Assembly: GCA_002163155.1 (NCBI GenBank)
Contig: MAAO01000006.1
Span: 868,001-932,000, forward strand
Direction: 5' to 3'
DNA length: 64,000 nt
Source of the DNA: Halobacteriovorax marinus
Lineage (GTDB): Bacteria; Bdellovibrionota; Bacteriovoracia; Bacteriovoracales; Bacteriovoracaceae
Part shown: one piece after another, positions 11,151 through 59,296 of the stretch
Layout of the letters: each line of letters starts with the position of its first letter
How positions within the stretch are numbered: the first letter of the stretch is position 1
Notes under the pieces: model-generated
Seen by the model: the letters and a program-made list of their open reading frames with translations, nothing else
Told to the model about the DNA's origin: nothing
Database searches by the model: none
Program-made: the position numbers and the translations under genes

Positions 11151-11783
11151 ATGAGTAAGAGTTGCTGCCAAGCTAAGGGCGAAGATTTAAAACTATTGGC
11201 ACAAAAACAAAAGAAAGTTCTGTGGGCAGTGTTGATCATTAATGCGGCCATGTTCTTTGTTGAATATATTTCAGGTTTTCTTTCCAATTCACAGGCCCTC
11301 ATGGCCGATTCTCTAGATATGCTAGGAGACTCATTTGCTTATGCCACAAGTCTATTTGTGATTGGTGGTACTCTTCGCTCTAAAGTTAAGGCCTCTCAGT
11401 TTAAAGCGCTTCTTATGGTGATTTTAGGAGTTTCAGTCTTTTTAAGAGTAGGGTATAGATTTATTTATAATCTTCCACCAGTAGTAAGTACAATGACTGT
11501 CATTGGAGTTATTGCTCTAGTGGCAAACCTCTGTTGTCTCTTTCTTCTAACAAGACATAAAGATGATGATATTAACTTTAGTTCAGTTTGGATTTGTTCA
11601 AGAAATGATATTATTGCCAATACACTTGTATTAGTGGCCGCTTACTTAGTGCACATTCTTCATAGCCCCATTCCTGATTTAGTTGTGGGACTAGTTGTGA
11701 CATGGCTCTTTTTGAAATCGGCCTTCAGTATTTTAGCTGAGAGTAAGAAGCAGTTGCAAGAAGCTCCTGCAGAAGTTTCTTAG
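11151..11783 (+). CDS. short CDF-type cation transporter (membrane domain only)
   Basis: A 210-residue membrane protein with about six transmembrane segments of the cation diffusion facilitator superfamily. The second helix carries ALMADSLDMLGDSFAYA, the D-x3-D metal-site pattern. Helix V has CSRNDIIANTLVLVA, where classical CDFs have HxxxD. It ends at residue 210 without the usual cytoplasmic C-terminal dimerisation domain. The N-terminal CCQAK pair of cysteines could bind metal. GGAAGAG precedes the start. Related short proteins are often simply called cation transporters, and the metal is unknown. Confidence 0.7.
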   Translation: MSKSCCQAKGEDLKLLAQKQKKVLWAVLIINAAMFFVEYISGFLSNSQALMADSLDMLGDSFAYATSLFVIGGTLRSKVKASQFKALLMVILGVSVFLRVGYRFIYNLPPVVSTMTVIGVIALVANLCCLFLLTRHKDDDINFSSVWICSRNDIIANTLVLVAAYLVHILHSPIPDLVVGLVVTWLFLKSAFSILAESKKQLQEAPAEVS

Positions 11784-11790
11784 AGCTCTC

Positions 11791-12954
11791 TTAAAACTTT
11801 ATTCCCGTTTTTGGACAAGTAAACTCTTCAAGAGCTTTTATATATTCGCCCTCAAATTCTTCGAGAGGGCGATCTGCAATTTCTGTAAATTTAGATTTCT
11901 TAATTTCATCAATTATATCAAAAGGTAGATACTGAGTTAAGGCACTCATTCCTTCTGGAAGAGCTCGTTTAAGCGCACCAAAGGCACGACAATAACCAAA
12001 GGCCTCATCTTGTCTCTTATACCCTTCAAAAAAAGCCGCCACAATCTCTGCTTTCTCTTCTATCGTTAGTAGTTCCGTACTTCCTAAGACTTCTCCCCAA
12101 GAGTCCATGAAGGGACCAACGGGAATGAGAAACTGTGAGGATTTTCTTAAACACCTCGGTTGTCGCATGGACATATGACGATGATTCTCTTTAGAAGCAA
12201 ATTCCTTATTTACACTTCCCGTATAAACAAGAATAGGATCGTAGAACTCACTGATTTCTAGACCTAGTTTAAAAATCTTCTTACAAAATGGATCCTCTTC
12301 ATTCATATTCCACTGAACCATCACACGGTCAAGGTCCCCAAAGTTGTGGGCCATGAGAGGTGCAGTTCTTAAGAAGTTAATATGATCTCGATCTTCTCTT
12401 AGTTGAATAAGAAGACTTTGTTCTTTTTCAATTTCAGCGAGGATCACATCAGCAACTTCTTGTGCCAGAGTGGCTTCCTTATGTTTTACCAGAGCGCAAT
12501 AAGCTCCAATCGCCACACTTAGCCAAGTTCCTTCATGAGTACTAAGCACTTCATTATTCTTTCTATTATATGATTTTCTATTGGTGACTTGTTGAAAGTC
12601 CCATTTCCAAGAATCAATAGTTATGCGGGCCATCTTTTCAATATGTTTTTTTATCGCTTTATTCTTCCACAGACCTTCACGAATTTGATTGTCCACATCT
12701 GTAGGAACAAAAGTTCCCGCAGTAGACCAATGAGCGGCCATGCAGATATGAAAGTATTCGCTGAGATTAATATTAGAGAGTGCCTTTAGGTTCTTCTTAT
12801 AGAATCTAAGTTTCTCTAGGTAGGCCCTTTGTTCTCCGGTGCTATTAAGTTCACCTTGAAAGAGAAAGGGCGCCGTATTTTCCACGTGCTTTAAGAGAAT
12901 ATTGGGAGCTATCCCGTCTAGTTCAAAACCTGATTTTAATTTTTTCTTTGCCAT
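11791..12954 (-). CDS. conserved-looking protein of unknown function
   Basis: I do not recognise this protein of about 387 residues. It is soluble, with no signal peptide, and mixed in composition with many tryptophans and histidines (for example MAAHWSTAGTF, NRKSYNRKNNEVLSTHEGTW, HINFLRTAPLMAHNFGDLDRVMVQWNM). These read like a folded enzymatic or ligand-binding domain. The terminal FTCPKTGIKF contains a single CPxTG. ATG 12954 (MAKKKLKSG) is preferred, with AGAAG upstream. ATG 12969 is also possible. The stop lies eight bases from the end of the convergent transporter gene. Confidence 0.6.
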   Translation of the reverse strand: MAKKKLKSGFELDGIAPNILLKHVENTAPFLFQGELNSTGEQRAYLEKLRFYKKNLKALSNINLSEYFHICMAAHWSTAGTFVPTDVDNQIREGLWKNKAIKKHIEKMARITIDSWKWDFQQVTNRKSYNRKNNEVLSTHEGTWLSVAIGAYCALVKHKEATLAQEVADVILAEIEKEQSLLIQLREDRDHINFLRTAPLMAHNFGDLDRVMVQWNMNEEDPFCKKIFKLGLEISEFYDPILVYTGSVNKEFASKENHRHMSMRQPRCLRKSSQFLIPVGPFMDSWGEVLGSTELLTIEEKAEIVAAFFEGYKRQDEAFGYCRAFGALKRALPEGMSALTQYLPFDIIDEIKKSKFTEIADRPLEEFEGEYIKALEEFTCPKTGIKF

Positions 12955-13032
12955 GAAATCTTCTAACATACCGATAATTGATCGAGAAGTAGGATGTTTA
13001 ATTTACAGGGATGATGAAAATTATTTAGATTC

Positions 13033-13041
13033 TGATATACT
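13033..13041 (+). promoter_or_regulatory. extended -10 promoter, leaderless-type
   Basis: TGA-TATACT forms an extended -10 element (hexamer 13036-13041). The ATG at 13050 lies eight bases beyond it, so the expected transcription start falls at or within a base or two of the start codon. No Shine-Dalgarno sequence is visible. The arrangement parallels that in front of the gene at 2333. Confidence 0.5.
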
Positions 13042-13049
13042 CGGCACCT

Positions 13050-13661
13050 ATGAAAAAGATCCTAATCAGCCTATTTCTCATCGGTTACTCCTGTATAAGT
13101 TATGCAAATAACTTGGAGCGTTTTCTAGAGACATCCAGCTCTAGCTTGAGCCTTTTAGGTGAAAGTCACATGGATGATGAATCTAGGGAAACTCTCGCTG
13201 ACACCCTTGTTATTTACAAGGTGAATGGGGGAGTCAATTTAGCTCTAGAGATGATTGAATCAAATCATCAATATTTATTGGATAACTTCTCCAAAGAGCT
13301 CGCTGGCTCTACAGCTGATCTTATTGAGTACCTAGATATTAGATGGGGATATAATACCAGTAGCTACATGTATCTCATCGAGCAGGCACGTACATTAAAA
13401 TTAAAACTTCTCGCCATCGATCTCTCTAAGAATTTATGGCCGGCCGAAACTACGATTTTTCCAGTATTACCTGATATTTCAAAAGTTAGGGCAGCCAGGG
13501 AAGCGCATATGGCCAAAATTCTCTGTGTTCAAAAAGATATTAAAACCCTAGTTCTCGTAGGTTCTTTTCATAGTAAGAAACGCTTCTTGCCGAAGGCCTT
13601 AAGGGCCGAATGTGAGCTTGAGAGTGAATCTTTTAGTTTAAGAGAAATTTCTCTCTTATAG
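13050..13661 (+). CDS. ChaN/TIKI-like exported protein
   Basis: A 203-residue exported protein. A signal peptide (MKKILISLFLIGYSCISYA) is followed by SLLGESHMDDESRETLADTL near residue 35, ALEMIESNHQYLL near 65, LKLLAIDLS near 110, and LVLVGSFHSKKR near 165. This order of G-E-(S/T)-H, A-L-E-M and G-x-x-H motifs is that of the ChaN haem-binding/EreA/TIKI superfamily. ChaN proteins are linked to iron or haem, but this member may instead be a hydrolase. The gene overlaps the convergent nnrS-like gene by six bases. Confidence 0.65.
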   Translation: MKKILISLFLIGYSCISYANNLERFLETSSSSLSLLGESHMDDESRETLADTLVIYKVNGGVNLALEMIESNHQYLLDNFSKELAGSTADLIEYLDIRWGYNTSSYMYLIEQARTLKLKLLAIDLSKNLWPAETTIFPVLPDISKVRAAREAHMAKILCVQKDIKTLVLVGSFHSKKRFLPKALRAECELESESFSLREISLL

Positions 13662-14786
13662 TCTAGGTCTTAAATAGATAGGCGTAAATTTAATCAAAAA
13701 GAGAATGAAGCCCAAAGTCCAAAATCCCATTGAAATATGCAACCAGATCACCATCGTATCTCCCACGAAGATTGGATAGAAAACTCTAAGTAGTGCACCA
13801 AAAGTAAGAGAGATAAATGAGGCCTTAATGAGAAAGTCCGCTTTAACCTCTCTTCCAGTATGACCTAAACTTGCACGTGACATTATCCCAATAGCAAAAG
13901 TTGAGAGAGCTCCCGCCATGAGTGCATGAAAAGCAGATCTACCATATTCCAAATCTGGCAGCGAGAGGGAAAAAGTTCTCAGTAGAAAGTAGATAATCAG
14001 CCAACTGTGGGCCACATGAAGAATAAGTAACATAGGAACTTTCATCACTTCTTTATTAATAAGTAGAAAACCTCTACGTATCATTAAAGTTGCGCAGAGA
14101 GGAACTACCACTAACTCTGCCAATTCAAAATTAGCTGCCTTGAAGATAAAGGAAAGCACACAGAGAGCGGCTAAGAAAATATCTCTTTTTAAATGAAGTC
14201 CTTCGATTTGAATATTTAATTTCGATTTTGTAAAAAACGGAATCAGTCTTCCTGAGAAGAGAAAGAGAATAAAGAAGATAGAGGTGCTGGCGAGAGTGTA
14301 AGCAGAATCAACCAAGTCTACATTTGCATTCACAGAACTATGCAGATGAAATAAATCAGCTAAGTATAAAGAGAGTATAGTGGCACCTATGGGAAAGACG
14401 TTACGATTTCCTCTTAGAACGTGAATGATTTTTAAAAGAAGAATGAGCAGAGGTAACGGAGCTATTAAGTATAAAACTATTGGATCTGGTTGGATGAACA
14501 TAATCACCCTGGCCACAATCCAGGTTAAAAGAAAGAAGAGTATTCCCGATCTGGCAATGACCTTCTTTCCTGTCCAATGGGCAGAGGCGGTTAAGAGAAA
14601 ACCTGTCAGTAGTGCACTAGTGTATCCAAAGAACATTTCATGTCCATGCCAAGCAAATGAAGTGAGAAGTTCGCCTGGATAGGGATAGTCATTAATCATA
14701 ATGCAAACGAAGTACATGGGGATTAAGATGGCCGTTAGGGCGGTGATAAAGAAAAATGTTCTAAAGGGAGCACTAAGAAATGCCAT
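13656..14786 (-). CDS. NnrS family haem/copper membrane protein
   Basis: A 376-residue polytopic membrane protein with about 12 predicted helices. The segment FAWHGHEMFFGYTSALLTGFLLTASAHWTGKK near residues 43-75 is the NnrS hallmark, with its histidines as putative metal or haem ligands. SRASLGHTGR near 310 is another typical loop. NnrS proteins help bacteria cope with nitric oxide and reactive nitrogen during anaerobic or host stress. I see no convincing NsrR or FNR box upstream, and no nitric oxide reductase gene nearby. Confidence 0.88.
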   Translation of the reverse strand: MAFLSAPFRTFFFITALTAILIPMYFVCIMINDYPYPGELLTSFAWHGHEMFFGYTSALLTGFLLTASAHWTGKKVIARSGILFFLLTWIVARVIMFIQPDPIVLYLIAPLPLLILLLKIIHVLRGNRNVFPIGATILSLYLADLFHLHSSVNANVDLVDSAYTLASTSIFFILFLFSGRLIPFFTKSKLNIQIEGLHLKRDIFLAALCVLSFIFKAANFELAELVVVPLCATLMIRRGFLLINKEVMKVPMLLILHVAHSWLIIYFLLRTFSLSLPDLEYGRSAFHALMAGALSTFAIGIMSRASLGHTGREVKADFLIKASFISLTFGALLRVFYPIFVGDTMVIWLHISMGFWTLGFILFLIKFTPIYLRPRL

Positions 14787-15028
14787 GTCCTCTCCAAATT
14801 AAATGAGCTTACAAACAATACTAGTCTAAATGATAGAAGATTCTCTAATGGAGGTCATGTTTTTAATCTGAAAAGAATAGTATTCATTTCAGCGCGATAC
14901 CTCTAACTGTCAATTATATTACTTTGTATAGACTTTAGTCAGATTTTCTTCGTTAAATCAGTAGTTTACGGGCTTCCTAATGGCACCCAACTTGCTTTAT
15001 AGAAGAGATCTAAACCATTGGAGTTCAT

Positions 15029-16567
15029 ATGAATTACGTCTTTTCGCTTTTGTGCCTACTACTTATAAGTACAAATACAATGGCAGAATTTAAAACTTTG
15101 CGCGGTCAAATTCATAAAGAGAATGACTCTATATTCTTTAAATCTAGTGATGGTGTAAGAGAAATCGTCATGGATAAGAAATTCTTATTCACGCTAGATA
15201 AAGTCGTTGTGAATAGTCCTGAATATATTTTTGAAATTGAAGGAGAGGTAAGTGATTCACAAATTATAACTCATAAAGTTCCAACAATTTTTGCAGGAAC
15301 AAGTAGCTTAAGCGGATATCTTCACATCGATAATGATGGAGAGTTAAGAATAGATGAGCAACTGATAAAGTTTGGAAGAACAAAAGTGATCTACAAGAAT
15401 AGCTTTGATAATATTTCAAAGAGTTCTTACTTAGACAGAGATGTTACAGCACAAGGTTCCTATAAAGATGGTGTCTTCTATATTAATGCCATTTTAGATG
15501 ACAAATTAATTTCAGCAACAATTGATCACTCATATCCAGCACCAAAAGAATTTTCAAAAAATCCAAGAGATTTCATTATTAATGAAATGGCCAAGAATAA
15601 ATTCTCGCAACTCAAGAACTCATTTAAAGGAGTTCTTTTTCAAAAGAAGAATTACCAAGTAGAAGTAGGTGAGTCTGTACTCATTATTACTCTCAGTGGG
15701 AGACAAGGTGATTCTCCAGGTTCAGCAGGTGGACACTTTACTGTGGGAATGGGTGAAGTGATGGAAGATATGACGATTAAAGGAGAGGTTTCAAATTTCT
15801 ACTTTAAAGGTCCTAAAGAAGTGCTTGCTGGAAATACAGATTTAGTGAGTTACTTTGGTCATCTAATTCAAGGGCAGGTTAACTATAGACCTACTTATAC
15901 GCTCTTTGCTTACGGTGTAGATAAAAAGAAATTACGTGAAGTGAGAGACGACTTAGAAAGAGAGAATCATAAAGTGAGAACTGATCCTGAACTAAATATT
16001 ACTCCGGGATATAATTGCGCAACAACTTCAACGAAAGCTTTAAATAAGGTAGGAGTTTACGGAAATCATAGAAATGCCCTAAGCTCTATTTTTGATATTC
16101 AAAACTTCTCTTATCTCAATCCTTTCTCATACGGTGCGAGACACACAGATGGTCAGGGTACAATGGGAACCATTAGAACTGTGAGTTACGCCCTTAGTGA
16201 AGATCCTGAAAATTATGTTCCGAGAGCGGCCTTTAATTCATACGTTGAGAATTTCTCTTCGAGTAAAATGAATAAGAAAATGGGAATTAAGAAAGTTGAT
16301 TATATTTTTATTCCTCAAGTTCCTTCGCTGAGGCAAGTGGGAGGAATGTCCTACGATGAGCCCATTGGTGAGGGGAAGAAAGTGGTCGATTATTCAAAAG
16401 CTAGAAGCAAGCGTATTAAGATGGAAGAGCAGGCGAGAGCAATTTTGCAAGACTCTAATGCCAGTGAAGACGAACTTGTTTGGGCGAGAGAAATTAGGGA
16501 GACGGAAGTTTCCTGGAAAGAAGACCAGAAAATGGTACGTGAATTCTTTGATAGAACTATAAATTAA
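15029..16567 (+). CDS. exported protein with a putative permuted papain-like (DUF4105-like) domain
   Basis: A 512-residue protein with an N-terminal signal peptide (MNYVFSLLCLLLISTNTMA). Residues 20-190 form a beta-rich unknown region. From about 210 the segment GESVLIITLSGRQGD, then GGHFTVGMGEV near 236, and PGYNCATTSTKAL near 328 resemble the His-first, Cys-second order of circularly permuted NlpC/papain folds such as DUF4105/Lnb N-domains. The C-terminus is charged and helical. The function could be amidase or acyltransferase activity in the envelope. The similarity is motif-level only. GGAG lies six bases before the ATG. Confidence 0.5.
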   Translation: MNYVFSLLCLLLISTNTMAEFKTLRGQIHKENDSIFFKSSDGVREIVMDKKFLFTLDKVVVNSPEYIFEIEGEVSDSQIITHKVPTIFAGTSSLSGYLHIDNDGELRIDEQLIKFGRTKVIYKNSFDNISKSSYLDRDVTAQGSYKDGVFYINAILDDKLISATIDHSYPAPKEFSKNPRDFIINEMAKNKFSQLKNSFKGVLFQKKNYQVEVGESVLIITLSGRQGDSPGSAGGHFTVGMGEVMEDMTIKGEVSNFYFKGPKEVLAGNTDLVSYFGHLIQGQVNYRPTYTLFAYGVDKKKLREVRDDLERENHKVRTDPELNITPGYNCATTSTKALNKVGVYGNHRNALSSIFDIQNFSYLNPFSYGARHTDGQGTMGTIRTVSYALSEDPENYVPRAAFNSYVENFSSSKMNKKMGIKKVDYIFIPQVPSLRQVGGMSYDEPIGEGKKVVDYSKARSKRIKMEEQARAILQDSNASEDELVWAREIRETEVSWKEDQKMVREFFDRTIN

Positions 16568-49553: not shown

Positions 49554-49580
49554 TACCTCGACGATAAGTTGATCGAGGTA
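49554..49580 (+). promoter_or_regulatory. hairpin sequestering the ribosome-binding site
   Basis: TACCTCGA (49554-49561) and TCGAGGTA (49573-49580) form a perfect 8-bp stem with an 11-base loop. The 3' arm contains the whole GAGG Shine-Dalgarno sequence (49575-49578) of the chemoreceptor gene whose ATG is at 49584. Translation should be blocked while the stem is closed. Confidence 0.55.
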
Positions 49581-49583
49581 CAA

Positions 49584-51158
49584 ATGAAATTAAATATTGG
49601 TCAAAAGATTTTATACATCGTTGTTATTCCCTTTGTGTTGTTTTCTGTGGTTTTTCTCTATTCTTCTTATACAGAAACTTCTGAAAATTTAATGCGTGAA
49701 AAGAAATTATCTCTAGAGTATGTCATTCAAACAGCAATGACTGTTGTGACAAATCATCAAAAGAGAGTTGATAGTGGAGAGCTTTCTGAAGAAAAAGCTA
49801 AAAAGTTAGCTTCCATTGCAATCGGGAATATTCGTTACGGAAGGGATATGAGTGATTACCTGTGGGTGAATAGTCTTCATCCTAGAATGGTTGCTCATCC
49901 AAAAAAATCATTAATAGGAAAAGATTTAAGTAACTTTAAGGATAAGGCCGGACAAAAAATATTTATGAATATGATAAATATTGCTAAAAAAGACGGAAAA
50001 GGTTTTATCGAATATGTTTGGAGCGATAAGGTAGATAAAGATAAATTTGTTCCAAAGTTATCTTACGTTCTCTACAACGAGAGGTGGGAATGGATACTAG
50101 GAACAGGTATTTATATTAATGATGTTAATACTACGATCACAAAACTTTTGATTGGTAACTTTATTAAGATCGCTATTATAATGACTATCTTAATATTTGC
50201 AGTTGGTTTTGTAATTAAGAAAAATATTAGGGAACCCTTATTAGAAATTGCAAGCCAGTTGTACAATACTTCTGAATCTGTAACGAGTGGTGCATCAGCT
50301 AGTCTAGAAAATTGTGATCTTCTCGCTGAATCTAGTCAAGAGCAAGCAGCCAGTCTACAACAAACAGTTAGTGCAGTAGAAGAAATAAGTGCCATGATTT
50401 CAAGAAATGCAAAATCCGCTGAAGCTTCAAAGATAACTTCTCTAGAGAGTCAAAAATCAGCTAATATTGGTAAAAAGAGAGTTGATGAGATGCTCTTAAC
50501 TATTGATGAAATTTCGAATAATAATGAGAATGTAATTGATAGCATGAAAAATACTAACGAAGAAGTAAGTGAAATATTAAATATAGTTAGAGATATTAAT
50601 GAAAAAACAAAAGTGATTAACGATATTGTTTTTCAAACAAAACTTCTATCATTTAATGCTTCTGTTGAAGCGGCAAGGGCTGGAGAAGCTGGAAAGGGCT
50701 TTACTGTAGTAGCTGAAGAGATTGGGGCACTGGCCAATATGTCTGGAAAGGCGAGTGATGAGATTCGAAGTCTCATTGAAAATAGTATCTCTAAGGTTGA
50801 GACCATTGTGAGTACAACGACTTCTGTTATGAATAAAATGATTGAAGAAGGTAATCTTGCAGTTAATAGTGGTAAAGAAAGAGCTCAAGAGTGCAAAATT
50901 GTTCTAGATGAAATTATTAGTAATGTTGATAATGTTAATACTAAAGTAGGCGAAATTTCAAATGCATCTCATGAACAAGCAACAGGGGTGGAAGAAATCT
51001 CTAAGGCGATGGAGTTGCTTGATCAAGTCAGTAATGTAAATAATAACATTGTTATAAATACAGCGAGTTCATCTAGAGAGCTTCAAAGTGAAGCTCACGA
51101 GCTCATCGAAGTGGTAGATAAGGTTAAGGGCATGGTTCATGGAGCCAAAGCGTCTTAA
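49584..51158 (+). CDS. methyl-accepting chemotaxis protein with a Cache sensor
   Basis: A 524-residue chemoreceptor. A first membrane helix (residues about 7-27) is followed by a periplasmic single Cache domain (about 30-180, including DYLWVNSLHPRMVAHPKKSLIGKDLSNF and FIEYVWSDK, typical of sCache_2). A second membrane helix lies near 192-212. The signalling domain follows, with hairpin tip IVFQTKLLSFNASVEAARAGEAGKGFTVVAEEIGALA around 350-390. HAMP is short or missing. ATG 49584 follows GAGG by five bases. It signals to CheA elsewhere. No chemotaxis gene is adjacent. The ligand is possibly a small organic acid. Confidence 0.92.
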   Translation: MKLNIGQKILYIVVIPFVLFSVVFLYSSYTETSENLMREKKLSLEYVIQTAMTVVTNHQKRVDSGELSEEKAKKLASIAIGNIRYGRDMSDYLWVNSLHPRMVAHPKKSLIGKDLSNFKDKAGQKIFMNMINIAKKDGKGFIEYVWSDKVDKDKFVPKLSYVLYNERWEWILGTGIYINDVNTTITKLLIGNFIKIAIIMTILIFAVGFVIKKNIREPLLEIASQLYNTSESVTSGASASLENCDLLAESSQEQAASLQQTVSAVEEISAMISRNAKSAEASKITSLESQKSANIGKKRVDEMLLTIDEISNNNENVIDSMKNTNEEVSEILNIVRDINEKTKVINDIVFQTKLLSFNASVEAARAGEAGKGFTVVAEEIGALANMSGKASDEIRSLIENSISKVETIVSTTTSVMNKMIEEGNLAVNSGKERAQECKIVLDEIISNVDNVNTKVGEISNASHEQATGVEEISKAMELLDQVSNVNNNIVINTASSSRELQSEAHELIEVVDKVKGMVHGAKAS

Positions 51159-51175: not shown

Positions 51176-53407
51176 TTACTTAGATGTTAGGGTGAAGACA
51201 CCATCCCAATTTGGTGGTGGTGGAAGTTCTTTAAATTGATTACAGCGCTCGATGTAAATACTCGAAGGATTAGGTTTCTCGTGTAAGAGTGGAAATCTTT
51301 CAAGTTCTAATACTAGAGATTGTTCAAAACACTCAATCGCCATATCCCATTGTTGATTCTTATAATTCACTAAACCTTTTTGAAAGTTCTCCTGCAACTT
51401 AAAGAGTAAGTCACTGGCATTTTTCTTTAGGTCCAAGAGTTCATAAGTTGTTACAGGTTTAGATTTTCCAACCACTTTTATAGTATCGAGCTCTCTAAAG
51501 AGAAATTCTTTTTCATTGCACTCAGCAAGAGTGTACTCAGAAATATGATTGAAAATTCCATATTGCTTTGCTGCTTCCTCTAGTCTTGCTGCAAGATTCA
51601 CAGAATCTCCCATCATTGTGTAATTCATTCGAGAAGCAGAACCCATATTTCCGGTTACAATTTCACCAGTATTAACGCCAATTCTCATTCTCATTTCGTG
51701 AACAATTTTTGGCCACTTATCACCTTCTTTTACCCATTTCTTTCTTAGCTCAAGCAGAGAGTCTTGCATTCTAGCAGCTACGTGTAATGCCCTTGTGGCA
51801 TGATCCTCTAGTGGCATTGGTGCGCCAAAGAAAGCGATTATGGCATCACCCTCGTACTTATCAAGCGTTCCTTTTTCTTCTAGGAGAATATCCGTCATTG
51901 CGGTTAGATATTCATTTAAAAGCTCAACCAGTTGAGTCGCCGATAAGTTTTCAGAGAAAGAAGAGAAACCTTGAATATCTGTAAAGTAAGCGGTTCTAAT
52001 TCCACAATCTCCACCTAACTCAGGATGTTCACCTCGGTCATACATTTCATCAATGAGTTCTGGAGAAATATATGAACTAAAGGCACCTTTTAAGAAGGCC
52101 TTATCTTTATTGGCTAAGTAAAAGTGGAGAAATGTGTTCCATGAATAACTACTGACAATGGCGAAGAAACAAAAGAAGAGTTTTATTTCATAGCCCTCTG
52201 GAATGAGGTGGTAGGTATCGTAATAGTAAATTCCACCAATGAGAACAATAGTTGAAACCAAATCAACAATAGCATTTCCAAAGAATTGAATAATAAGAAT
52301 GATGAGCGATCCTCCAAGAAGAATGGCCCAGGAGAGAAAGGTTGAATCCTGTTGTGGCTTGAAGTAATTCCCTTCAAGTAACATATGGGTAAGATTCATG
52401 TGAAAGAAAACTCCTGGCAGAATTGGATCTACGGGAGTGTGTCTAAGGTCGTAAGCACCGTAAGCACTAGCACCCACAAAGACTATAGTATTATCAAAGA
52501 TTTCCTTCATCTTCTCGTCGTTGTCGCCTGCTCTTACTATGTCTGCAATACTCACTCTTGGAAAGTGAGAAGCGTCTCCTAGCCATCTCACTTTGGCTTC
52601 ACCTTTATAATTTAATTCTAAATTACCAGTGGCGAGTTTAAATTTGTAATCACCGATATTTAACATTTCTAAAATTGGAGAGTCTCCAGTGTAATGGAGA
52701 TAGGCCAAGAGAGAGTAGGAAGGCATGTAGAGCGTGTCGATATTACCAACAATTTGATAATGTCTCATAATCCCATCACTGTCCGCCTCAACTTGAATGT
52801 GTCCAAGACTAGCTTCTGTATCTAATATCTTTTGAATAGGCCAAACCGCTTTTGAAACAGCTTTTGGTTTGAGCTCAATTCCTTCACTATTCTTTGTATC
52901 AACAATGAAGTTGTAGAGTTGTTCTGGAAGCTCTTCAAAAATATCGGCTCCTTGTGTATTTAGCGAGTAGGGGATGATGACTTTATTACCTGGAATCGAT
53001 TGAAAGCGAGTAATTGAATTTGCCATGAGATCATCAACTGAAACATCGTTACAGACCTTTGTTTCTTCCGCAAAGAACACATCAAAGGCAATCACTTTTG
53101 CCCCGTACGTGCCAAGTTTGTCTATTAAGGTTGCCCAGGTTTTTCTATTCACTGGCCACTGACCTAATTCTTTAAGGGAGTAGTCATCAATATCCGCCAT
53201 GACTAGTCGCTTTTCAAACTTATCACTCTTAATGGTCTGTCTCATTCTGATATCAAAGAAACGATCTTCAAAAAATGATGTGTAGGCAATCTTTGATTTA
53301 ATATTTGGATCTTCTATATCCCTTTCCGTTAGAGAGAAGAAAACACTTAGAGCAGAGAAGGATATTATAAAAATAAATCCCAGGTACTTGATGATTTTTG
53401 ACCACAT
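51176..53407 (-). CDS. CHASE2-domain adenylate/guanylate cyclase
   Basis: A 743-residue class III cyclase. An N-terminal membrane helix is followed by a periplasmic CHASE2 domain (about 40-345, with VMADIDDYSLKELGQWPVNRKTWATLIDKL and VIAFDVFFAEE). Three membrane helices lie around 355-430, and the cytoplasmic catalytic domain spans about 455-640. Metal aspartates lie in AYFTDIQGFSSFSE and KYEGDAIIAFFG, and the transition-state segment is NYTMMGDSVNLAARLEEA. The last 80 residues form a TPR-like tail. It is the last gene of an operon with a TPR/barrel protein and a FecR protein, so it probably converts an envelope signal to a cyclic nucleotide. Specificity for ATP or GTP is not resolved. Confidence 0.9.
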   Translation of the reverse strand: MWSKIIKYLGFIFIISFSALSVFFSLTERDIEDPNIKSKIAYTSFFEDRFFDIRMRQTIKSDKFEKRLVMADIDDYSLKELGQWPVNRKTWATLIDKLGTYGAKVIAFDVFFAEETKVCNDVSVDDLMANSITRFQSIPGNKVIIPYSLNTQGADIFEELPEQLYNFIVDTKNSEGIELKPKAVSKAVWPIQKILDTEASLGHIQVEADSDGIMRHYQIVGNIDTLYMPSYSLLAYLHYTGDSPILEMLNIGDYKFKLATGNLELNYKGEAKVRWLGDASHFPRVSIADIVRAGDNDEKMKEIFDNTIVFVGASAYGAYDLRHTPVDPILPGVFFHMNLTHMLLEGNYFKPQQDSTFLSWAILLGGSLIILIIQFFGNAIVDLVSTIVLIGGIYYYDTYHLIPEGYEIKLFFCFFAIVSSYSWNTFLHFYLANKDKAFLKGAFSSYISPELIDEMYDRGEHPELGGDCGIRTAYFTDIQGFSSFSENLSATQLVELLNEYLTAMTDILLEEKGTLDKYEGDAIIAFFGAPMPLEDHATRALHVAARMQDSLLELRKKWVKEGDKWPKIVHEMRMRIGVNTGEIVTGNMGSASRMNYTMMGDSVNLAARLEEAAKQYGIFNHISEYTLAECNEKEFLFRELDTIKVVGKSKPVTTYELLDLKKNASDLLFKLQENFQKGLVNYKNQQWDMAIECFEQSLVLELERFPLLHEKPNPSSIYIERCNQFKELPPPPNWDGVFTLTSK

Positions 53408-53425
53408 AGAATGATCTCCCTTATA

Positions 53426-55033
53426 TTAAAAAGAGTAGGAAAGTTGAGTTGATGTTATGTGTTTTGAGTATTTCGAATCAGCTTCTAGTGAAGTGTTATT
53501 TGTATACTCATAAGAAACTGCGAATTGTAACTTTTCCGAAATCTTCTTTGTTAACTTAAATATAGGTGCAAAAGTTTTTTCTACACCTCTAGATAGACTC
53601 TCATTCGAATCTGTATAATCAGTGAAGCTCATTGAGGCCCCAACATGAAGAGTGATCTTAGGGAGGAACGTCGGGTGTATAAAGTCTACTCTTAAAAGTG
53701 TTGCATTGGTTGAGCTTGCTGTTGAATTGTAGGAATCAAGGGCGTCATACTTGAGGAGAAAAATGAATAGGTGTCCACTAGTAGTGTAATAGACTTGGTC
53801 AACTGAAAAACTTTTTGTCTTACTGTGAAGATCAACGATATAAGATTTAAGGTCTTTGTACTCAAACTTAATAGTCGTTTCACCTTTGATGAAGAATTGA
53901 AACTTCTCTCCAAGGGCAACATTTAAATATCTTGAATAGAAAGTTCTTCTAGATAACTCTTTTCTGAATCTTCCTTTGTAATTGTATTCAATATTAAAAA
54001 GAAGAGAGGCGGGGTTTAAAAAGAGCTTGTGCTCATATGTGCTATTTAAACTTGGATCAATATTGTAATTGTCCTCTGCTCTAACAGCTTCTGAATCCTT
54101 ATTAGTATGTGACTTGGTACTTAAACCAAGAGAAGGAGTAATTACAAATCTCTTTTTAAATATTAAATTGTAACTTGAATTAAAAGTTGTCTCAAAAATA
54201 TAGGAATCTTCTCTTGAAGCAGTGGAAGAAGCCAGGTCACTAGTAAGAGAGATATTATTGTCATAGGAAACTTTCTCATCGATTGAGATATTCCATCTCT
54301 TAGAGGAGATGACTCTACCGTTTCTAAGCATATTTGGATCAAGTCCAAACTCTCTTTCTATTTCTTTCTTCCTGCTTCTAATTTCATCAGCTAAGCTAGA
54401 TTCTTTCTTAATGGCAATCGCCTTATCAATTTGTGGTAACACAAACTTATCTACTAATCTTTCTGGATCTGTGGCCTTTCTCGCCATTGTAAGTAGGACT
54501 TCTCCAAGTTGAAATCTCGCTACTTGTAATAGGTCTTTATCAGCAGTTTTAGATTTCAACATTTTGACATAATATCTCTTGGCCTTTTTATTCTGTTCAA
54601 GAATTTGAGAAATATGCGCCACATAGTAGAGAGAGGAGTCAGGTTTATACTTTCCCCTAAATGACTTCTTAAATGATGCTCTCGCTTTTGTGAGTTCACT
54701 ATCTGCGTAGAGTGCCTGACCATACTCATAGTAAATATCTTGTGCCTTAGAGCCTGACTTTAATGCCTTTCTAAAATGTCTAATAGCTCTATCGTATTGT
54801 TGCAAGCGATTATAAGAGAGAGCAATTAAGTAGTGCTTAGTTGCTCTTGTTTTTGAATTTACTTTTAGGTTTTCTAAACTTGAAATGACCTTTCCATAGG
54901 AGCCACGTTTATAATTTTCAAACGAAGACTTAATAATACCGGAGTCATTTGCAGATATATTTAGGGAGAATAAAAGAGAGAATATAAGTACACTATACAA
55001 TTTCATGAGGCCAAATCCATTTAACCAAAACAT
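53426..55033 (-). CDS. TPR plus beta-barrel outer-membrane protein
   Basis: A 535-residue exported protein. After a signal peptide, residues about 30-230 contain TPR units (KHYLIALSYNRLQQYDRAIRHFRKALKSG, DIYYEYGQALYADSELTKARASFKKSF). Residues about 245-535 alternate polar and hydrophobic strands and end STQLSYSF, the terminal aromatic usual for outer-membrane barrels. It is the middle gene of a three-gene unit with FecR upstream and the CHASE2 cyclase downstream. The same trio occurs in other Proteobacteria-like genomes as I recall. The barrel may be a sensor pore or an export protein, which is inference. Confidence 0.7.
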   Translation of the reverse strand: MFWLNGFGLMKLYSVLIFSLLFSLNISANDSGIIKSSFENYKRGSYGKVISSLENLKVNSKTRATKHYLIALSYNRLQQYDRAIRHFRKALKSGSKAQDIYYEYGQALYADSELTKARASFKKSFRGKYKPDSSLYYVAHISQILEQNKKAKRYYVKMLKSKTADKDLLQVARFQLGEVLLTMARKATDPERLVDKFVLPQIDKAIAIKKESSLADEIRSRKKEIEREFGLDPNMLRNGRVISSKRWNISIDEKVSYDNNISLTSDLASSTASREDSYIFETTFNSSYNLIFKKRFVITPSLGLSTKSHTNKDSEAVRAEDNYNIDPSLNSTYEHKLFLNPASLLFNIEYNYKGRFRKELSRRTFYSRYLNVALGEKFQFFIKGETTIKFEYKDLKSYIVDLHSKTKSFSVDQVYYTTSGHLFIFLLKYDALDSYNSTASSTNATLLRVDFIHPTFLPKITLHVGASMSFTDYTDSNESLSRGVEKTFAPIFKLTKKISEKLQFAVSYEYTNNTSLEADSKYSKHITSTQLSYSF

Positions 55034-55069
55034 TTAATAACAATGACTTATATTATAACTAAATTTCTC

Positions 55070-56419
55070 TTAATTAATATTAAATTTTACCTTAGTGTTT
55101 TTGTTTATCTTTGGCGGAAGTGGTTCCGGCAGAGGTGGTCTTGGGATTGGAATTGGTTGTAGAGTTGGCTCTCCATCTGGTCCACCACTTGATGGATTTA
55201 AAGGAGCAGCTCCCTCGGGTAATGGTTCATCTATTGGTGCAAGTTCAGGTGGTTTTACCTCAGGTCCATCACCTGTACTAGCAGGGGATCTATTGGGTAT
55301 TTTATCAAATGATCCATCCGGTTGTAGTACGTGAGTATCGTGTTGATAGTTTCCGGTTGCAGCGTTAAATCCACCCATATCGGCAGGAGGTATAAAGGTT
55401 TCAGTGGCAGCATCAAAAGTTGAGCCTGGTGGAGGAGCAATGTAGAGAGCAGTATGTAAATCTACATATCCTCCTGCTGGGGGAGCAATTTCCCCAGTTG
55501 CTTTATTCACATAGCCTTCTGGCGGTGGTCCGCCAATTTCTTTTGGACCTTTAGCAAATTTATCAGATATTATTTTTGTAGCCGTGGCCCCAATAACTTT
55601 TTGAACTTGTGACTCAACATTTGCGTCGTTGGCAAAATCTTTAGAGTTGGCACCTGGAGGTATAATATTTCTATATTTCTTCTTTGAACCTTTTTTCTTA
55701 CTACTTGTTTGATCATCAGCTGATTTAGAAGCATCGTGTCCCTTCATTGTTTCTAACTGACCAGGATTGATTTTTACAGGAGTTGTTGCTCTCAATGTTT
55801 TCCCTGGATTAACCCCAGAGAACTGACCTTTTCTCACGATAACGGCCTTATCACTTGAAACAATTCTCTCTAGTACTCTTTGATTCGTTTTAAAGTTTTT
55901 AACAGTGGCCTTCAGCTGCGCCATCGCTACAGCACCAGAGAATGTAATGAGCGCAGTGTTTCTATTAATAGGGTTGTAAGTGACGACGAAGTCCGTCCCA
56001 CGCACACCCATGGCAGCAGTTTTAGTTTTTATGAAGAGTTTTGATTTATTTTTGTCTTTCATATCAAGATAATTCTTCGTCACTTTGGCGCGTAGTGAAC
56101 CTTTTAGCAGAGTAATGATACCGGCCTTCTTTCTAGGAAATTTATTAATCGCCATTTGAGATTTTGGACCAAGATTCATTTGTGATTTATCAATGAAGAG
56201 AAATTTAACAAATGACTTCTTCGCAGTTTTTACAAGATATCCCTCTTGAACCCAAGAACCTCTTTTTAATGTTATTTTTTCTTTAGTTTTAGGGTTATAA
56301 GCCTGAACGTTACCTTTTAAAATAATCGCCTTGGCCACACCTTTTGTGTTCGCAAGCGCCGTTGATTGAAGGCATAGACCCAAAATAATTGTAAGAATTA
56401 AACTCTTAATGAACTTCAT
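55070..56419 (-). CDS. FecR-domain exported protein with proline-rich repeat tail
   Basis: A 449-residue protein with signal peptide (MKFIKSLILTIILGLCLQSTALA). The FecR domain covers about residues 25-215, with VQEGYLVKTAKKSFVKFLFIDKSQMNLGP and the hallmark MGVRGTDFVVTY near 137-148. Residues 298-365 hold four imperfect repeats of the PP-x-G-(Y/F)-x-x-A-T-x-x-(Y/F)-I type, and the last 70 residues are proline-rich. FecR domains in this setting are periplasmic and not anti-sigma factors. It is first in the operon with the TPR-barrel and CHASE2 cyclase. Confidence 0.85.
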   Translation of the reverse strand: MKFIKSLILTIILGLCLQSTALANTKGVAKAIILKGNVQAYNPKTKEKITLKRGSWVQEGYLVKTAKKSFVKFLFIDKSQMNLGPKSQMAINKFPRKKAGIITLLKGSLRAKVTKNYLDMKDKNKSKLFIKTKTAAMGVRGTDFVVTYNPINRNTALITFSGAVAMAQLKATVKNFKTNQRVLERIVSSDKAVIVRKGQFSGVNPGKTLRATTPVKINPGQLETMKGHDASKSADDQTSSKKKGSKKKYRNIIPPGANSKDFANDANVESQVQKVIGATATKIISDKFAKGPKEIGGPPPEGYVNKATGEIAPPAGGYVDLHTALYIAPPPGSTFDAATETFIPPADMGGFNAATGNYQHDTHVLQPDGSFDKIPNRSPASTGDGPEVKPPELAPIDEPLPEGAAPLNPSSGGPDGEPTLQPIPIPRPPLPEPLPPKINKNTKVKFNIN

Positions 56420-56547
56420 CTGCCTTCCCTAGGATTGATTAAAAAGGCATAGCTTTTGCCTTAATAGCTTTTCGTCTATTATATGGGCAAACTTGAGAGG
56501 AGTTATTTAGGGGAAAGTAGGCGAGGTAACTGGTTGTTTGTAGGAAA

Positions 56548-56578
56548 GCACAAAAAAAGAGGCGATGATTTTTTGTGC
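56548..56578. terminator. hairpin between arsC-like and fecR genes
   Basis: GCACAAAAAA and TTTTTTGTGC form a perfect 10-bp stem with an 11-base loop, 17 bases after the end of the arsC-like gene on the minus strand. The T-run lies within the stem, so it may be an unusual terminator. Function is uncertain. Confidence 0.45.
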
Positions 56579-56594
56579 CACCTATACGGTAATA

Positions 56595-56942
56595 CTAGAC
56601 TATTTCGATGAGGTTCTCAGGAGGTCTCCCAATGGCCACACGCTTACCATTTTTTAGAATGGGTCTCTCTAGTAGAACTGGATTTTCGGCAATGATTTTA
56701 GACCACTGAGCGAGAGTTTTTGAATCTTTCTTGGAAAGACCCAGCTCTTTAAAAGTCGCTTCTTTGACTCTGATTAATCCATCGAGTGGTTCAATATTTA
56801 ATGAAGTCGCTAGCTCCTTTACTTCTTTAGTCGTTAAACCTTCTTTTAAGTATTCTTTTATTGTGGGTTCAACACCTTTTTCTTTTAAGAGCGCTAGCCC
56901 TTGTCTTGATTTACTACATCTTGGATTGTGGTAATAAAGCAT
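56595..56942 (-). CDS. ArsC/Spx-family reductase (arsenate reductase-like)
   Basis: A 115-residue thioredoxin-fold protein of the glutaredoxin-linked ArsC group. The catalytic cysteine is C9 in NPRCSKSRQGLALL. The C-terminal ILKNGKRVAIGRPPENL supplies the conserved arginine. The likely reaction is arsenate to arsenite with glutathione or glutaredoxin, though the YfgD-type members have uncertain substrates. No other arsenic gene is present. It follows two exported-protein genes with an eight-base gap. Confidence 0.85.
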   Translation of the reverse strand: MLYYHNPRCSKSRQGLALLKEKGVEPTIKEYLKEGLTTKEVKELATSLNIEPLDGLIRVKEATFKELGLSKKDSKTLAQWSKIIAENPVLLERPILKNGKRVAIGRPPENLIEIV

Positions 56943-56950
56943 AACTTCTC

Positions 56951-57658
56951 CTAAAATAAAACGATTCCGATACTTAGAATTAAGGCCTCAGCGCGAACGT
57001 CTTTCTTTGCTTCCGACTTACTGAGAACGTTGCTCTTAGTAGAGTCAGAAGTATCAACTAAGTAAGCACGCAGAGAGTAGAGTCTCACGTAGGATAATTC
57101 CACGTAGACTGGATGCATTTCTTTATATTTTAAATTTTCTTCTAGTCCAATGGAAATTCCCCAACCAACAGAGTCATAAGTTAGTTTGAAGTTTCTTCCT
57201 GAAAATGGACCAGTGGAAACAAATTCCTTTAAACGAACGGTTTGCTGTGACCAAATAGGTCCTGTTCCTAGATTGATTCTCCATTCTTTTAGAGGTTTCC
57301 AGGGAACAAAATATCTAAGCGTTGGACTGACCATTAGGTTTTGATAGTTACCACTACCTTTGAAAGAATTCTCATTAATGACAAAGGAGAGATCTTCAAC
57401 TTTTCCAAGGACGATAGTTGAAGAGATTGTGAACTCATAGCGCTCCCATCTATAACCAAAGTGAGTATTAAATCCAAAGCCTCCAAAGTAACTGTGCTCT
57501 GCAATTCCTCTGTCATCTGAACCGGGTTCTTCTTTTTCAAAAACACCTAGACGATTGAGAGAGAAGTTTGTTCCAGCTTTTAAAAACATTTCATTATTAA
57601 AAGCCAGTGAGCTTTTTGAGATTAGAAATATGAATGTTAATAGTGTTAAAAACTTCAC
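56951..57658 (-). CDS. putative outer-membrane beta-barrel protein
   Basis: A 235-residue protein with signal peptide (MKFLTLLTFIFLISKSSLA) and alternating-residue strands such as FGYRWERYEFTISSTIVLG, NLMVSPTLRYFVP and VYVELSYVRLYSLRAYL, ending in LILSIGIVLF. The pattern is that of a small OmpW/OMP-b-brl type barrel. No specific family is recognised. It is one base downstream of the DUF3943-like gene and probably co-translated with it. Confidence 0.6.
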   Translation of the reverse strand: MKFLTLLTFIFLISKSSLAFNNEMFLKAGTNFSLNRLGVFEKEEPGSDDRGIAEHSYFGGFGFNTHFGYRWERYEFTISSTIVLGKVEDLSFVINENSFKGSGNYQNLMVSPTLRYFVPWKPLKEWRINLGTGPIWSQQTVRLKEFVSTGPFSGRNFKLTYDSVGWGISIGLEENLKYKEMHPVYVELSYVRLYSLRAYLVDTSDSTKSNVLSKSEAKKDVRAEALILSIGIVLF

Positions 57659-58321
57659 TTAAAAATCCATTGAAAAGTTGAGACCAACTTTTCCCTTACC
57701 GTCAAAGTCCGGAGTTAAACTAATCTTTCCTTCGTAGTACCAGAATAATGTAGAAGGATTTATTATATGACCCAAGACTTTTCCAAAACTATTTCCAGAG
57801 TTTAGAAGCCATAGTGAAAGGTTTTCAATTCCGACTCCCAACACTGCGCCTAGAATAGGAGTTTGATAGAGGTCTTGAATACTCGCGGGTTCAGTATAAA
57901 TTTCAACTGTAAATTCAAAGAGAGTACTTGATATAAAAGACATGGTTAGTGAGTCAATTCGGTTATACCCATTTGCCCTATAGTAGAGAAACAGCTGTGA
58001 ACCGGAAAGGGGATGAACAATCCAATTCCAAAAGGGTTCATCTTGGTCAAAGACAATTTTCCCGAAATTATCACCATATTTCTTGAAACTACCATCGTCT
58101 TTAAAGGTTTCAAGTTGTGTGAGGGGATAAATGGCCCAAGTTACGGCATATACCCCTGCAATATGTTTCATATTTTCTTGAGTCGTGTGTTCGCGGTCTA
58201 TATAAGTATAGTAATGCTTTTGAGTTCTTCTCGATTTATCTACACCTAGATTGGATAAGTCTTGCTCTTGTCCAAAGGCCGATTGTATAGAGAGGATAAA
58301 AAATAATATGATAATTTTCAT
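57659..58321 (-). CDS. DUF3943-like exported protein
   Basis: A 220-residue protein with signal peptide (MKIIILFFILSIQSAFG). The central block, NWIVHPLSGSQLFLYYRANGYN near residue 95, then STLFEFTVEIYTEPASIQDLYQTPILGAVLGVGIE near 128, resembles the DUF3943 signature of HPxxGS, E-(x)n-EP-S-x-x-D and a glycine-rich helix. Function is unknown, but an envelope location is likely. It is the first of three closely packed minus-strand genes. Confidence 0.65.
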   Translation of the reverse strand: MKIIILFFILSIQSAFGQEQDLSNLGVDKSRRTQKHYYTYIDREHTTQENMKHIAGVYAVTWAIYPLTQLETFKDDGSFKKYGDNFGKIVFDQDEPFWNWIVHPLSGSQLFLYYRANGYNRIDSLTMSFISSTLFEFTVEIYTEPASIQDLYQTPILGAVLGVGIENLSLWLLNSGNSFGKVLGHIINPSTLFWYYEGKISLTPDFDGKGKVGLNFSMDF

Positions 58322-58396
58322 AAAAATGTTTCTTTATTTGGTTCGTACCTCTTGATACCATGCTGGTCACATTTTAAAAACTATAATGGTGTATAT

Positions 58397-59296
58397 ATGC
58401 TCGATAAGCTTAAACAAAATTTCGTTGACCACGTGCGCAATTTGCAGAATGAAATTACCCGTGAAATTAAAAGAATAGACCCTAGCATCGAATTGGTGGA
58501 AGACAATTGGGATAGACTAGACTTTGCAGGCGAGAAAGGCGGAGGCGGTATCACAAGGGCCTTTACTGGCGACATAATAGAGAATGCAGGAGTGAATACT
58601 TCTGTCGTGTACGGGGCCATATCGCCTGAATTCGCTAAGAAAATTGGGAGTGATGATGCCACTATGTGGGCCAGTGGGATTTCGCTGATTATTCATCCTA
58701 AGAACCCCAAAGTCCCAACCACTCATGCAAACTTTAGAATGATTCAAGCAGGGGACAAGTTTTGGTTTGGTGGTGGCGCTGATCTAACGCCTTACTATCC
58801 ATACGAAGAAGATTTTGAATACTTCCACAATGTTTGGGCAAAGGCCTGTGAACCCTATGGGAATTATGACGCTTTCAAAGTGAAGTGTGATGAATACTTT
58901 GTTAATAAGCATCGAGATAATGAAATGAGAGGGATTGGAGGTATTTTCTTTGATCATCTCAATTCCGGAAACACTGAAGTTGATCTCAATATGGTAAAGG
59001 ACCTTTCAAACCACTTCATAGATTCTTTCTTTCCTCTAATGGACAAGAGAATGGATGAGACTTTTAATGAAGAAGATGAGGATTTTCAGCTGCACCGACG
59101 TGGTCGCTATGTGGAATTTAATTTACTCCATGACCGAGGAACAATGTTTGGACTTCAAAGTAACGGCAGAACGGATTCAATTTTAATTTCCCTGCCGGGG
59201 AGAGTCAAATTCTCTTACAAGTATGCTCCTAAAAAGAATAGTCCTCATGAGAAAATGTTGGAATACTACTACCCAAGAGATTGGGCGAGACTGTAA
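58397..59296 (+). CDS. hemF: oxygen-dependent coproporphyrinogen III oxidase
   Basis: A 299-residue enzyme that oxidatively decarboxylates coproporphyrinogen III to protoporphyrinogen IX in haem synthesis. Signatures are EKGGGGITRAF near residue 45, HPKNPKVPTTHANFRMIQ near 100, FWFGGGADLTPYYPYEEDFEYFH near 122, and RRGRYVEFNLLHDRGTMFGLQSNGRTDSILISLPG near 235. ATG 58397 (MLDKLKQNF) is preferred over an upstream in-frame ATG at 58352 by family length. Oxygen dependence fits an aerobic organism. Haem supply would serve the c-type cytochromes encoded at 42-46 kb. Confidence 0.95.
   Translation: MLDKLKQNFVDHVRNLQNEITREIKRIDPSIELVEDNWDRLDFAGEKGGGGITRAFTGDIIENAGVNTSVVYGAISPEFAKKIGSDDATMWASGISLIIHPKNPKVPTTHANFRMIQAGDKFWFGGGADLTPYYPYEEDFEYFHNVWAKACEPYGNYDAFKVKCDEYFVNKHRDNEMRGIGGIFFDHLNSGNTEVDLNMVKDLSNHFIDSFFPLMDKRMDETFNEEDEDFQLHRRGRYVEFNLLHDRGTMFGLQSNGRTDSILISLPGRVKFSYKYAPKKNSPHEKMLEYYYPRDWARL

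Follow-up and report, generated by a model that had tools for sequence, protein, structure and literature searches.

Examination of a 64,000-nucleotide stretch of the Halobacteriovorax marinus genome (contig MAAO01000006.1, positions 868,001 to 932,000; hereafter the window) reveals three consecutive minus-strand genes which code, in order of transcription, for an exported FecR protein (55070-56419), an outer-membrane β-barrel with periplasmic tetratricopeptide repeats (TPR-barrel; 53426-55033) and an inner-membrane CHASE2-containing class III adenylyl cyclase (51176-53407). The genes are separated by gaps of 36 bp and then 18 bp, the latter placing the barrel gene next to the CHASE2-cyclase gene in an adjacency of the NsrA-CyaK type. 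The trio had been recognized in a preliminary description made from the sequence alone; its coordinates proved exact, and Pfam matches, hydropathy and structural models agree on its composition. Many other bacteria carry related sets, which point to FecR-type proteins as the partners long sought for CHASE2; this is described as a common sensor domain with an unknown ligand (PMC5192318).

Domain architecture and predicted folds

The FecR protein (449 amino acids; open reading frame (ORF) list, Pfam FecR 2.3e-11, hydropathy and model) is composed of a signal peptide, a FecR domain spanning about residues 29-232, a Pro/Gly-rich repeat domain at about 300-375, a disordered stretch and a conserved C-terminal strand. 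The N-terminal signal segment is its sole hydrophobic segment, and neither Pfam nor hydropathy indicated a cytoplasmic anti-sigma domain or a transmembrane helix beyond the signal peptide; a LysM match was likewise absent in the Pfam scan, which covered 7 ORFs of the 46-62 kb region. The structural model of the protein (predicted local distance difference test score (pLDDT) 70.8) contains no barrel. Its best fold match is the cell-surface signalling domain of PupR (6ovk; Z 14.5 over 139 residues, root-mean-square deviation 2.8), and it also matches the putative anti-sigma factor BDI_1681 (Z 13.5). As a separate observation, residues 25-99 resemble the cell-surface anchoring domain 5ix9 (Z 6.9), which hints at a common fold with adhesin retention modules. 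Of 16 split FecR proteins compared, 15 share an alternating C-terminal strand (like TRVKFNIN), the exception being that of locus L073.

The TPR-barrel (535 amino acids; ORF list, TPR_16 6.3e-8) combines a signal peptide, a periplasmic TPR superhelix and a 14-strand barrel. Its AlphaFold model, built from an alignment of 17 sequences, reaches a mean pLDDT of 88.9, with TPR helices at residues 46-228 followed by 14 long strands. The barrel portion is nearest to CymA (Z 22.7) and OmpG (Z 21.3), and TPR superhelices are the nearest match for the TPR part (Z about 18). Foldseek ranked the polysaccharide channel BcsC first and also preferred the porins CymA and OmpG. The fold lists for the barrel and FecR contain no Slam or NsrA-like entry, an absence that excludes nothing.

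In the cyclase (743 amino acids; CHASE2 8.5e-45, Guanylate_cyc 8.9e-26), the CHASE2 domain (PF05226, residues 46-368) is flanked by hydrophobic segments, namely an N-terminal helix at 4-28 and a stretch at 354-394. D477, D521, N604, R608, K517 and T597 are all present in this protein, which was also aligned to CyaC (1wc0) and CyaB, and these positions are invariant in 33 aligned cyclases. We take them to be, respectively, the two metal-binding aspartates, the Asn/Arg transition-state pair and the K/T substrate pair of class IIIb enzymes, so that the class IIIb adenylyl cyclase residue set is complete. As the K517/T597 pair matches that of CyaC and constitutes a class IIIb adenylyl signature, the product expected in vivo would be cyclic AMP (cAMP) rather than cyclic GMP. 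A sequence search found no solved CHASE2 structure: all 60 solved relatives listed match from position 363 on, mostly in the catalytic domain. The cyclase shares 80% identity with one of Bacteriovoracaceae bacterium UBA3083 and 64% with one of Halobacteriovorax sp. SP2999, which places it in that group (Bdellovibrionota). The genome (4.55 Mb in 16 contigs) codes for only two class III cyclases, both with CHASE2 and both beside FecR, and yields 15 cNMP-binding protein matches. It also contains 16 FecR domains against 7-8 in four genomes of the same genus, which points to a recent expansion.

Linkage, co-loss and co-evolution

To place the trio in context, 59 genomes, including that of the window, were searched with CHASE2, FecR and Guanylate_cyc, and 49 CHASE2-cyclase loci were taken, again with the window included, 35 of them from its own family; FecR was detected with a locally built profile. 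Of the 35 family loci, 17 have FecR within 5 kb (0.63 expected), as do 18 of all 49 (0.72 expected), the expectations being derived from FecR counts and genome sizes and the tail probabilities being near 2e-21 under random placement with kinship ignored. The family count is a lower bound, since loci L059 and L083 end almost at the gene start. The same profile found FecR at none of 14 CHASE2-histidine-kinase loci. Where they are linked to the cyclase, FecR and the barrel are mostly adjacent and in the order seen in the window. FecR-CHASE2 fusion proteins are absent from the examined ORFs, as the FecR-profile matches include no cyclase ORF.

The distribution of the barrel follows that of the cyclase. 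Calling the barrel with profile A1 (E <1e-50) in 37 family genomes, including that of the window, detected it in 27 of the 30 that have a CHASE2-cyclase and 1 of the 7 that have none (Fisher p 2.3e-4, not corrected for kinship). Both are absent from 6 genomes, and the 5 of these on the kinase tree account for 4 changes, at least 3 of which are forced by well-supported branches; genome incompleteness (G016 is 66% and G005 75% complete) weakens single cases. In G009 the barrel gene carries two stop codons. Barrel and cyclase are thus co-lost, even when unlinked.

The association extends well beyond this family. Of the loci from a single scan of named genomes, 80 were retained, and FecR was found within 5 kb in 32 of the 75 with an identified cyclase ORF and in none at 5-9 kb (28 of 75 under stricter gene picking); two of the five loci lacking an identified cyclase ORF also carry FecR. 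Of the 32 linked loci, 4 come from the window's own group. Outside it, Pfam recognizes the FecR domain at E 0.01 in 29 of 30 FecR proteins and TPR_16 in 5; in a Geobacter locus (L144) a single protein combines FecR and TPR. Titles of the FecR-linked records include Neomarinimicrobiota, Verrucomicrobia/Opitutales, Geobacter relatives, Nitrospinae, Calditrichota, Ignavibacteria, Balneolales and Acidobacteria.

Ten matches from a plasmid collection were also opened. Seven of these records (H1, H2, H5, H12, H13, H19 and H27) have FecR beside the cyclase, which was not so in H20 (Leptospira) and H52, while H58 lacks annotation. A profile search of the seven and H58, with H20 and H52 left out, recovered 9 CHASE2 genes, every one of which has FecR no more than 2.3 kb away; the FecR total was 16. 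Because the seven records were picked after FecR had been seen in them, the unbiased test consists of two extra CHASE2 genes (W01:527495 and W05:10876), both of which have FecR nearby. One of the two is cyaD1 of Sinorhizobium meliloti, whose neighbours are FecR, a Crp-family gene and a phosphodiesterase. A plasmid search aimed at nsrA led to this gene instead: the S. meliloti record examined yielded cyaD1 and one further CHASE2-cyclase but no identified nsrA. In Paracoccus and Shinella, TPR, FecR and CHASE2-cyclase stand in one row. Together these observations bear out conservation of the linkage, which the preliminary description had named as its check and whose absence it gave as a ground for refutation: linkage persists within the family and turns up again in other phyla, and losses of the barrel and of the cyclase go together. 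Two side observations concern these plasmid-type loci. In Shinella and Ensifer (L261, L263) the FecR/CHASE2-cyclase genes adjoin NHLP bacteriocin-export genes, and the 3.7-Mb S. meliloti record CP090106.1, titled pSymB, has both cyaD1 and pyrC and looks like a mislabelled chromosome.

The second copy in the same genome (locus L004) has a more elaborate organization. Here the cyclase is divergent from a 716-amino-acid FecR protein whose C-terminal half appears barrel-like by eye; this FecR-barrel fusion is followed by a TPR-barrel, an extracytoplasmic function (ECF) sigma factor (Sigma70_r2 1.1e-12) and a protein of 165 amino acids that, judged by eye, probably has one membrane helix, the set from the fusion to the one-helix protein occupying positions 11166-15956 of the locus. 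The same gene series is found in Bacteriovorax sp. MedPE-SWde (L111). A single locus thus brings together FecR barrels, TPR-barrels, a CHASE2-cyclase and a sigma factor. The earlier statement that FecR is not next to a sigma factor accordingly holds for the window copy, to which it referred; the second copy does have one. Next in the series is a protein with PDPDPT repeats: this exported protein beside the sigma factor (L004:15970-17412) combines a long DPTPDP repeat with a basic C-terminus, and the comparable stretch of L111 shows up as two ORFs.

Distance-matrix co-evolution was computed on 15 linked sets, with the CHASE2-kinase serving as species control. With both species background and catalytic domain controlled, FecR and TPR co-vary (r 0.61, p 0.002), and TPR and CHASE2 show a lesser value (r 0.30, p 0.08). 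These results make FecR plus TPR-barrel the firm unit. A FecR-CHASE2 signal obtained with the catalytic-domain control alone (r 0.65, p 0.0005) vanished with the CHASE2-kinase control and was counted as negative.

A proposed trans-envelope relay and its alternatives

Several described systems bear on the function of this trio. The two closest come from S. meliloti and from Campylobacterota. In S. meliloti, the inner-membrane CHASE2 adenylate cyclases CyaK and CyaD1/D2 and the outer-membrane barrel NsrA take part in nodule signal perception, the barrel being described as needed for CHASE2-cyclase signalling (PMC7529298, PMC13001267); the FecR, Crp-family and phosphodiesterase neighbours of cyaD1 add to the likeness. 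This system differs in that NsrA is a single protein with its barrel portion at residues 600-1200 (PMC7529298), whereas FecR and TPR-barrel are separate in the window, and in having a plant host, which the window organism lacks. In Campylobacterota a CHASE2 adenylate cyclase, a FecR outer-membrane protein, a TPR protein and a phosphodiesterase are reported as clustered and have been proposed to form one pathway (PMC9239204). The window shares with this cluster the grouping of cyclase, FecR and TPR genes; however, its FecR is periplasmic with no barrel in the model, and its TPR and barrel are fused. The 716-amino-acid FecR protein of the second copy does have a barrel-like half, by eye. Finally, the Burkholderia BiofilmReg operon is described as combining a response regulator, a LysM-FecR protein and a CHASE2 histidine kinase (PMC5192318), and thus also has FecR directly beside a CHASE2 sensor, but with a kinase output, a LysM domain and no TPR-barrel in place of the cyclase output of the window.

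By analogy with NsrA-CyaK, we propose that the trio probably constitutes a trans-envelope relay, a reading we hold with moderate confidence, in which an outer-membrane signal would be passed through the periplasm to a cAMP-making cyclase. In this scheme the 14-strand barrel would act as the receptor in the outer membrane and could bind the FecR protein through its periplasmic TPR domain. Occupancy of the barrel might then alter the way in which FecR offers its domain to CHASE2 of the inner-membrane cyclase, whose class IIIb catalytic domain would make cAMP for the cNMP-binding proteins of the genome. The analysis establishes how the genes are arranged, which domains, predicted folds and catalytic residues they have, that their linkage is conserved, that barrel and cyclase are co-lost and that FecR co-evolves with TPR; the direction of signalling, a FecR-CHASE2 contact, cAMP as the product in vivo and an extracellular ligand are parts of the interpretation.

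The view of the trio as an envelope sensor, put forward in the preliminary description, is thereby strengthened in part, through the conserved linkage, the co-loss of barrel and cyclase and the two published sister systems that have been read alike. Several results pull the other way. With the species control, FecR and CHASE2 show no significant co-evolution (r 0.16, p 0.24), and it is gene neighbourhood that suggests a contact between them. On the cyclase tree, which has 50 rows (with the short or cut L050, L054 and L069 left out), loci with linkage cluster, yet at least 8 changes are needed to account for them, so that linkage is patchy and the arrangement has been gained or lost repeatedly. 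Furthermore, when 20 further loci with FecR and/or a TPR-barrel away from a cyclase were fetched, the two were adjacent or nearly so in 19; L222 has its FecR reading frame broken into two parts, and in L224, at a contig end, the barrel alone was recognized. An S. meliloti strain mutated in the FecR gene next to cyaD1 is reported to respond unimpaired to the plant shoot signal (PMC5498481); as that signal is described as CyaK-dependent (PMC7529298), the mutant is no test of CyaD1 itself. Among cyclases without a FecR neighbour, the gene of about 300 amino acids upstream of some of them was considered as a hidden FecR and rejected: in L175 the gene directly upstream of the CHASE2-cyclase (L175:7975-8883) codes for an M48 peptidase. 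The neighbours in L117 (Neomarinimicrobiota), of 906 and 401 amino acids, gave no Pfam match.

A broader and more tentative possibility, to which we give somewhat less than even credence, is that CHASE2 is generally a receptor for FecR-domain proteins, with FecR as its periplasmic ligand. The FecR-CHASE2 pair would then be an old, exchangeable joint by which, in many phyla, cyclases and kinases are connected to outer-membrane receptors, be they TPR-barrels, FecR-barrel fusions or FecR-TPR fusions, the anti-sigma FecR of Escherichia coli being one offshoot. A general partnership of this kind is not stated in the available portions of the literature treating both CHASE2 and FecR, parts of it have already been published for single groups, and the Bdellovibrio cAMP literature and a Geobacter paper contained nothing on this gene set. 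The repeated FecR neighbourhood offers a concrete candidate partner for CHASE2 and reduces the question to a pull-down or co-structure; making this partner testable is the main value of the gene set. It also shows that FecR proteins without an anti-sigma part occur beside second-messenger enzymes, and makes the trio a candidate for surface sensing in a predatory bacterial lineage, the cultured relatives of the window's group being described as predators.

Two alternatives to the relay appear about equally unlikely. One is that the cyclase senses alone and that the FecR-barrel pair is a separate envelope module which merely shares its transcript and chromosomal spot. Pair and cyclase are indeed unlinked in roughly half of the family loci, a hemF-like gene adjoins the cyclase in loci without the pair (see below), and no FecR-CHASE2 co-evolution is seen beyond the species background. 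Against this, FecR-CHASE2 adjacency recurs in unrelated phyla in varied arrangements, for which coincidence is hard to argue, and barrel and cyclase are co-lost even where they are not neighbours.

The other is that the TPR-barrel is primarily a protein exporter like the type XI (Slam/DUF560) translocons, with FecR or a neighbouring lipoprotein as cargo, and that FecR and CHASE2 report the success of export or surface display. The FecR partners in Paracoccus and Shinella (L260:3889-5856 and L261:3356-5905) end in weak matches to TbpB_B_D/FHBP_C, which are domains of known Slam cargo, although these matches fall under the curated cut-offs. Large proteins with lipoprotein-like N-termini (by eye) stand beside several unlinked pairs (e.g. 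L205, L207, L211, L214, L217, L218, L220 and L222), as expected of an exporter with its cargo, but no lipoprotein adjoins the window trio. The conserved C-terminal strand of FecR could serve as a targeting signal. An N-terminal TPR and a 14-strand barrel in the model are shared with DUF560 proteins (topology as given in PMC8406197), and 4 of 17 barrels have a sub-threshold TPR_Slam match; however, none of the 17 matches PF04575 at E 0.01, so that membership in type XI secretion was rejected on sequence, and Foldseek favours the porins and BcsC. PF04575 was found in none of the 59 genomes, which says little, as control genomes likewise gave no match.

Classical Fec-type cell-surface signalling, with FecR as anti-sigma regulator of a TonB-dependent receptor system (FecI-FecR-FecA), shares with the trio the FecR domain, the PupR-like fold and the outer-membrane-to-cytoplasm logic, and can point to the ECF sigma factor of the second copy, but is highly improbable and, for the window copy, largely refuted by domain content: its FecR has neither transmembrane helix nor cytoplasmic anti-sigma domain, which rules it out as a classical anti-sigma FecR, its cluster contains no sigma gene (ORF list, by eye), and its 14-strand barrel has no TonB-receptor or STN match in Pfam.

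Genes flanking the trio

Upstream of FecR, an intergenic leader (56420-56594, minus strand) contains a TATAAT-like box and a ribosome-binding-like sequence, both read directly; a scan for promoter-like sites gave no excess over shuffles. It is followed by an ArsC/Spx-like gene of 115 amino acids (56595-56942, minus strand; family name read from the translation), which separates the trio from a second conserved group and is kept in only part of the loci, and is therefore probably a bystander. The second group consists of genes for an exported 235-amino-acid protein, possibly a small barrel (56951-57658, minus strand), homologues of which lie beside most trio loci, and a 220-amino-acid DUF3943 protein (57659-58321, minus strand; PF13084 2.9e-28), which always adjoins it. 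These two genes accompany most linked loci. In L082 and L092 they also stand next to a cyclase that has no FecR, and in L206 next to a FecR-barrel pair that has no cyclase.

Beyond them lies a hemF-like gene on the plus strand (58352-59296; name read from the translation). Its homologue adjoins the cyclase in 8 loci without the FecR-barrel pair (L058, L075, L077, L079, L087, L089, L114 and L115), of which L114 has a FecR gene on the other side of the cyclase. As it stands beside the cyclase in relatives without the pair, this gene marks an old locus; the hemF-cyclase arrangement would have come first, and the FecR-barrel group would either have entered it later or have been lost from it. A phosphodiesterase was not recognized among the ORFs of the 46-62 kb region, just 7 of which were scanned with Pfam. 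On its other side the cyclase is adjoined by a gene for a single-Cache methyl-accepting chemotaxis protein (49569-51158), a close homologue of which is also found beside the cyclase in some relatives (L066, L067).

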